A stretch of DNA of 64,000 nucleotides. It comes from Chlorobiota bacterium (GTDB lineage Bacteria > Bacteroidota > Ignavibacteria > OLB7). Below are positions 19,284 to 60,061 of this stretch, piece after piece. The DNA is taken from positions 1 to 64,000 of the forward strand of contig JAQBOZ010000021.1 in NCBI GenBank assembly GCA_028287785.1, written 5' to 3'. Positions within the stretch are counted from its first letter, which is position 1, and the number at the start of each line of letters is the position of its first letter. A model generated the notes under the pieces. It saw nothing but the letters and a program-made list of their open reading frames with translations, was not told the origin of the DNA and made no database searches. The translations under genes were made by a program, and so were the position numbers.

Positions 19284-19457
19284 AATCATAGGGATATTCA
19301 TGTTAAGCGATATACGACTATACGGGCATCGGCGATCTTTGCTGTTGAAACGGGAAGCTACACGAGTTCTCCATTCGGAACAAACATCATGCTGGAAGCG
19401 TTCGTTCAGAAGCAACTCAGTTTGAATCCATCCTCCGGTCTGCTGAACGATCATCGG

Positions 19458-19659
19458 TCCCCTCATCACTCTTCAAGCTCCATCGGAGCGCGCCGATTGT
19501 AGCACAATGCTCCCATCTCCCGCTCAAGCTCCAGAGGAGCGAACCGTCCCCGCACTCATGAAGAATAGGTACGCTCTGATGGAGTTTGCGATCATGGGAG
19601 GCGTGGCATTGCTACAACCGGTTCCGCCCCGATGGGGCTGGGAAGACCGATGCCGGATG
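19458..19659. repeat. Dispersed ~200 bp hairpin element, copy 1
   Basis: This element aligns along its whole length, same strand, with 59528-59725. It contains three short hairpins of the form GCTCC-N3-GGAGC at 19477-19489, 19528-19540 and 19573-19585 (the last imperfect). The core is enclosed by an inverted repeat, CCGATTGTAGCA at 19493-19504 and TGCTACAACCGG at 19610-19621. Loop sequences differ between the copies while stems are kept. It has no open reading frame of note and no neighbouring transposase. Confidence 0.85.
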
Positions 19660-19765
19660 CTCTCCATAATTTCGAGCATCATGAACCCCGCCCCAGACTC
19701 GGTCACGACCTTTCATTCTCCCGGTAACGATTCAGCAGGCGATGGTGATGGTGGGATAAAACGAA

Positions 19766-59349: not shown

Positions 59350-59527
59350 TTTCCCGATATCCCGGTTTACTTCAATCTCTCACGATGATTGCGCGAAGCT
59401 GATTTTCGATTGACTGCATGAAAAATCAGTACATCATAATAATCAGCCCATCTCACAAAGGATTAATAGCGACGCTACGGCATTTTCACGTAGCATCACT
59501 ATGCTGAATAATCATCGATCGAGACGA

Positions 59528-59725
59528 TCCCTTCATTACTCCTCAAGCTCCGTGGGAGCGCGCCGGTTGTAGTACCGATGCTCCCATTTCCTACGCAAGC
59601 TCCAGAGGAGCGAACCATCCCAGCCTTTATGAAGCACTGTACGCTCCGCTGGAGCTTGAGATCATCCAAGTGGCGATGCTGCAACCGGTTCGCCCTGATG
59701 GGGCTGAAACGGTAGATGCCGGATG
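59528..59725. repeat. Dispersed ~200 bp hairpin element, copy 2
   Basis: This matches 19458-19659 in the same orientation. The three hairpins are perfect here: GCTCC-GTG-GGAGC (59547-59559), GCTCC-AGA-GGAGC (59599-59611) and GCTCC-GCT-GGAGC (59643-59655). The enclosing arms are CCGGTTGTAGTA (59563-59574) and TGCTGCAACCGG (59677-59688). Confidence 0.85.
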
Positions 59726-60061
59726 AAGTCCATGATGGCTCGAGCATCCTGAACTTCATCCCACACTGAGTCACCATTCGGAAAGATTCCGATAGGGCGC
59801 AACGTCCATGACATAATTGGAGCAGTGAGTTCAGGTCGGAGCCCAGGGAAGGCTGGTGATGGTGTAAGACATCTGATTTCATCGAGTGCCAAAGGCGGTG
59901 GCCGATTTCCCGGCCGCATCATATCATCGGGCATCCTCCCCAAACGCCAAGCGCCTCATCCGACATCATTGCCGAAGGAGGCGCCTGTTATTCCGAGAGT
60001 ATAGTTCATGCCGCCGCGTGAAAGCCCCGCCGGCCACATTCCTGGAGCCTTCGCGCCCCGC

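Follow-up and report, generated by a model that had tools for sequence, protein, structure and literature searches.

The repeat found twice in the window, which is the whole stretch of 64,000 nucleotides of Chlorobiota bacterium DNA analysed here, is very probably a non-autonomous DNA transposon (MITE), probably moved in trans by an IS1-like transposase at 8-bp targets and built inside as a foldback of palindrome doublets. The original prediction had described an element of about 200 bp with three hairpins and had offered two readings of it, a MITE-like element or a structured RNA. The first of these was supported by the terminal inverted repeats (TIRs), the 8-bp target-site duplications (TSDs), about 100 dispersed copies, the lack of coding capacity, and the existence of autonomous relatives with the same 12-bp ends. 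Among the two observations named beforehand as counting against the original prediction, flanking duplications were found, which mark the repeat as a transposon, and a loss of stem conservation in other copies was not found.

Boundaries, copies and target sites of the element

The two window copies lie in the same orientation 40 kb apart, as had been noted, and were 77% identical over about 250 bp (blastn, E = 3e-47, 179 bits), whereas dinucleotide shuffles of copy 1 scored at most 33 bits. Both copies extended further than had been described (Table 1), and the family to which they belonged comprised about 100 copies dispersed over their own genome assembly (4.75 Mb, 37 contigs), from which 42 well-aligned copies were recovered. 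A scan with the TIR pattern gave 86 + 87 TIR-like ends in this genome and 0 in the reversed control, and the palindrome unit AAGCTCC-N3-GGAGCG was present 264 times, compared with 2 for its control. The element boundaries were set from the alignment of 43 stretches with their flanks, and copy 1 was delimited by alignment to 36 full-length copies. The intact element was about 309 bp long (consensus 309 nt), began with GGTAGTGACTCAGTTTGAATCCA and finished with CTGAGTCACTACC, bounded by 13-bp TIRs (GGTAGTGACTCAG...CTGAGTCACTACC). Subfamilies with these common ends were mostly 228-331 bp in length. The element had no coding capacity and carried no transposase, in agreement with what had been read from the two copies. 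The 12-nt inverted repeat that had been taken as the outer border proved to be internal, and the true ends may have escaped the first reading because they are decayed in both window copies. No match to the repeat was present in the plasmid collection, and its core sequence had no blastn match in 60 relatives.

The flanks of 42 copies agreed only at a length of 8 bp, with a mean match of 70.5% against 24-31% at other lengths. In a test on 52 copies found by the left end only, 36 showed an 8-bp TSD matching at no fewer than six of the eight positions, while 1.1 were expected when the flanks were re-paired by shuffling. By a gene model based on a rough codon score, which left many loci with no gene call on at least one side, 47 of 50 empty sites looked intergenic and the other 3 fell inside a predicted gene; the genes flanking the copies were found in all orientations. 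Tandem or nested clusters of copies with shared ends were also observed at four loci (L043, L331, L337, and L327). Many contigs of the assembly (C2, C7, C10, C11, C17, C18, C19, C23, C24, C25, C29, C33, and C35) started or ended in or beside a copy, and these repeats were probably the cause of assembly breaks.

Table 1. Positions of the two MITE copies and their parts in the window
Feature	Position	Strand	Remarks
MITE copy 1, whole element	19408..19710	+	aligned to 36 full-length copies; ends AGAAGCAACTCAG / CTCGGTCACGACC are decayed TIRs
Copy 1 left TSD GTTCGTTC	19400..19407	.	from sequence; right partner TTTCATTC matches 6/8; 8-bp length set on the family
Copy 1 right TSD TTTCATTC	19711..19718	.	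from sequence
Copy 1 palindrome 1 GCTCCATCGGAGC	19477..19489	.	
Copy 1 inner repeat CCGATTGTAGCA	19493..19504	+	GGTTGTAG-type tag
Copy 1 palindrome 2 GCTCCAGAGGAGC	19528..19540	.	
Copy 1 palindrome 3 GCTCTGATGGAGT	19573..19585	.	other arm of palindrome 2
Copy 1 inner repeat TGCTACAACCGG	19610..19621	-	
Copy 1 palindrome 4 GCCCCGATGGGGC	19626..19638	.	partner of palindrome 1
MITE copy 2	59465..59778	+	left end lost or replaced; right TIR decayed: CTGAGTCACCATT
Copy 2 palindrome 1 GCTCCGTGGGAGC	59547..59559	.	
Copy 2 palindrome 2 GCTCCAGAGGAGC	59599..59611	.	
Copy 2 palindrome 3 GCTCCGCTGGAGC	59643..59655	.	
Copy 2 palindrome 4 GCCCTGATGGGGC	59692..59704	.	

The IS1-like transposase as the candidate mobiliser

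The TIR GGTAGTGACTCANNTTG was present in 13 of 391 genomes of the class, the own genome included, and the short elements of the other genomes that carried it also had 8-bp TSDs. When GTDB genomes and viral contigs were scanned with GGTAGTGACTCATTTTG, many short elements of 78-588 bp were obtained from Acidobacteria, Deltaproteobacteria, Bacteroidota, and others, together with long elements of 2.3-3.4 kb whose ends matched at 11-12 bases and whose 8-bp TSDs were exact (L142, L156, L168, L191, and L241), all of them in other organisms or viral contigs. Two further loci, L259 and L200, were long elements of the same description, with broken or truncated transposase frames. Each intact long element encoded a protein of about 300 aa in one ORF, and the three proteins tested matched Pfam DDE_Tnp_IS1 (PF03400) at 29.7-33.0 bits, above the cut-off of 24.1. 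The best NCBIfam family was likewise IS1 (E 6e-16 to 3e-20), at 59-73 bits, which is under its cut-off of 100 bits. Five of the transposases aligned with conserved acidic residues that are compatible with a DDE-type site, and no relatives were found in the PDB. Some of these elements bore passenger genes within the TIRs, namely a Gp49/HigB-like toxin with an HTH antitoxin (L191:5001-5868), a HigB-like toxin with an HTH/IrrE protein (L200:4094-5540), and a ClpP-like SDH protease (L156:614-1528). Where this TIR bounded MITEs elsewhere, as in L085, L231, and L134, the interiors were quite different, and several of these were palindromic too.

A profile search of 38 genomes detected related transposases, either complete or as fragments, in 16 of them, and those at L292 and L307 lay in elements with similar (variant) ends and exact TSDs. 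In the own genome, whose assembly is 95% complete, the only remnant was a decayed fragment of 66 codons with two stops. Neither the own genome nor its genus yielded an intact transposase bounded by exactly these ends, and the best end of a copy from the same genus (L295) carried 3 mismatches. The kind of mobiliser, an IS1-like transposase, is well supported, and an intact local partner, which is not a strict requirement for a MITE, is missing. Since the assembly holds only the decayed fragment, the family may by now have ceased to move, or its mobiliser may be a gene copy that the assembly lacks. In the proposed mechanism, a transposase of this type, supplied in trans, would recognise the GGTAGTGACTCA-type ends and insert the element, for the most part in intergenic DNA, at targets staggered by 8 bp, and such an enzyme probably moved the copies in this genome.

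Two other partners were considered and rejected. IS1595 was suggested by the 8-bp TSD, but the three IS1595-type genes of the own genome had none of these TIRs, and the IS1595 elements of relatives had other ends with no match to those of the MITE. The IS1595-type transposases at L064, L065, and L066 differed from one another, were each present in single copy, and had no recognisable TIRs. ISL3 was absent.

Interior palindromes and the conservation of their stems

The consensus formed one full-length foldback hairpin with a free energy of -148 to -166 kcal/mol. Where three separate hairpins had been described, there are in fact four palindromes: the second and third hairpins together make up a single larger inverted repeat, each forming one arm, and the partner of hairpin 1 is a fourth palindrome present in both copies. 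Read from either end inward, the core consists of the palindrome AAGCTCC-N3-GGAGCG, GGTTGTAG, about 25 nt, and a second palindrome, forming two doublets that face head-to-head. Some subfamilies, with elements of 257 and 239 bp, lacked entire palindromes, and the full set of four is therefore dispensable. Copy 2 shared 98% identity with a family member on contig C7.

In the first comparison, covering 36 copies, the stems were 99.2% identical and the loops 84%. Because many of these copies had been found via the core, the test was redone on left ends identified with only the TIR, and the claim made here is drawn only from this set of 76 left ends, in which nearest neighbours were paired on non-stem positions and the differences counted. 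Differing sites made up 2.6% of the stems, 12.6% of the loops, 13.7% of the spacers, 13.7% of the flanks, and 12.3% of the right TIR. Fisher tests of the stems against the other regions gave p values of 1e-16 to 1e-58, which overstate the case since the compared pairs are related, and the roughly five-fold contrast is the finding. The palindrome stems were thus better conserved than all other parts of the element, even in decayed old copies. The observation that stems are kept while loops differ held overall, except that the third stem of copy 1 is inexact (GCTCT/GGAGT). Selection for structure, which had been suggested from it, is partly supported, in the form of a palindrome sequence conserved over loops, flanks, and right TIR; none of the stem pairs showed a compensatory change.

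This last result bears on the reading of the repeat as a dispersed, functional RNA, either structured or regulatory (for example a terminator or a 3'-end stabiliser), whose hairpins are kept by selection. Conserved stems with free loops and the very strong foldback would suit such an RNA, yet compensatory changes were seen in 0 of 20 pairs of the four palindrome stems and in only 1 of 43 pairs of the long foldback, which points to the palindromic sequence, in preference to pairing within an RNA, as the conserved feature. No Rfam family matched the whole window above its gathering score, and the palindrome motif gave sub-threshold matches only, mostly to microRNA families, which look like chance matches to hairpins. 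With TIRs and TSDs as the mark of mobility and flanking genes in all orientations, an RNA of this kind, the second reading in the original prediction, is improbable. Appreciably more probable, although a little short of an even chance, is that the stems seem conserved only via the need of the source copy for transposition or via arm-templated repair, fixed copies being unselected. Private changes were about equally common in the stems (1.05%) and the TIRs (0.86%), and the long foldback is a template for arm-to-arm correction. On the other side stands the right TIR, which is needed in any source copy as well and differs nearly as much as the flanks and spacers; this speaks for a large part of the changes having accumulated once the copies were inserted, with the stems spared. 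The conservation could come partly from source-copy constraint, gene conversion or palindrome-templated repair. In the simplest reading, a putative host or element protein would read the stems as dyad-symmetric DNA sites, possibly in fixed copies too.

The palindrome unit is not restricted to this family. A search of the own genome and its relatives, as the original prediction had proposed, found the unit in 31 of the 80 genomes, one of them the own genome, and the other 79 contained 100 exact units compared with 7 for the control. Several of these outside units kept the doublet spacing of 48-53 nt, and in some of them TTTGTAG followed the palindrome, for example AAGCTCCGTAGGAGCGATATGTTTGTAG at L367, with L360 and L374 as further cases. 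At these loci, L362, and other class genomes, a REP-like arrangement was seen, in which AAGCTCC-N3-GGAGCG is followed by about 10 nt, GTAG, and the second palindrome; these doublets were not tied to any transposase here, and a literature search with the doublet motif strings returned only unrelated papers. As similar doublets occur outside the MITE family in the same class, the interior of the MITE is probably a captured REP-like sequence, and the palindromes alone could be old REPs. That the whole repeat is a REP/REPIN family with a RAYT (Y1) transposase as its mobiliser is, by contrast, very unlikely. Its palindromes do lie near GTAG in inverted pairs and the own genome has Y1_Tnp genes (3 matches), but GTAG-tagged AGCTCC-N3-GGAGC units stood beside none of these three genes, and all 20 own-genome loci fetched around AAGCTCC-N3-GGAGCG, which had been chosen for carrying it, placed the unit in MITE-like copies, some with decayed ends. 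Neither GTAG at the foot of the palindrome nor a RAYT flanked by REPs was found here. TIRs of 13 bp and TSDs of 8 bp are not known as RAYT products, and RAYT mobility of this element is largely refuted by the TIR/TSD structure and by Y1 genes without palindromes.

Relation to known elements and meaning of the family

The autonomous relatives resembled the single-ORF type of the IS1 family in that their transposase exceeded the Pfam DDE_Tnp_IS1 cut-off and their ends began with GG. IS1 elements produce TSDs of 8-11 bp, a range that includes the 8 bp of the MITE. The autonomous relatives differed from that family in the single-ORF transposase of about 300 aa that fell below the NCBIfam IS1 cut-off, in the GGTAGTGACTCA-type ends, and in the passenger genes that several of them bear, such as the HigB/Gp49-like toxin and HTH antitoxin. 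The MITE itself is like other bacterial MITEs and foldback repeats in being short and non-coding, with TIRs, TSDs, and many mostly intergenic copies, but unlike them its interior consists of two head-to-head palindrome doublets with stems more conserved than the right TIR. With GTAG-tagged REPs (Di Nocera et al. 2013, PMC3733652) it shares short G+C-rich palindromes that lie near GTAG and are paired and intergenic. GTAG stands about 10 nt off the palindrome here and at the palindrome foot there, and the present units are inside a transposon bounded by TIRs and TSDs, with no RAYT association in this genome. Moreover, the repeats of Chlorobi and Bacteroidetes were listed as CGTC, not GTAG (Di Nocera et al. 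2013, PMC3733652).

As a new MITE family with IS1-like ends, the repeat is of an ordinary kind, and the conservation of its palindromes is its one unexplained feature. It is conceivable, though rather doubtful, that the MITE spread a palindromic site found across the class (GCTCC-N3-GGAGC with a GTTGTAG tag), which would be kept in immobile copies by putative host-protein binding, as an operator or nucleoid-protein network. The family represents a clear case of a burst of IS1-type MITEs with multiple subfamilies in a poorly studied Bacteroidota lineage, and it can be classified because end-matched autonomous relatives exist elsewhere. With its conserved stems, it offers a concrete example, open to testing, of palindromic DNA sites that are seeded by a mobile element and may then be kept by selection.
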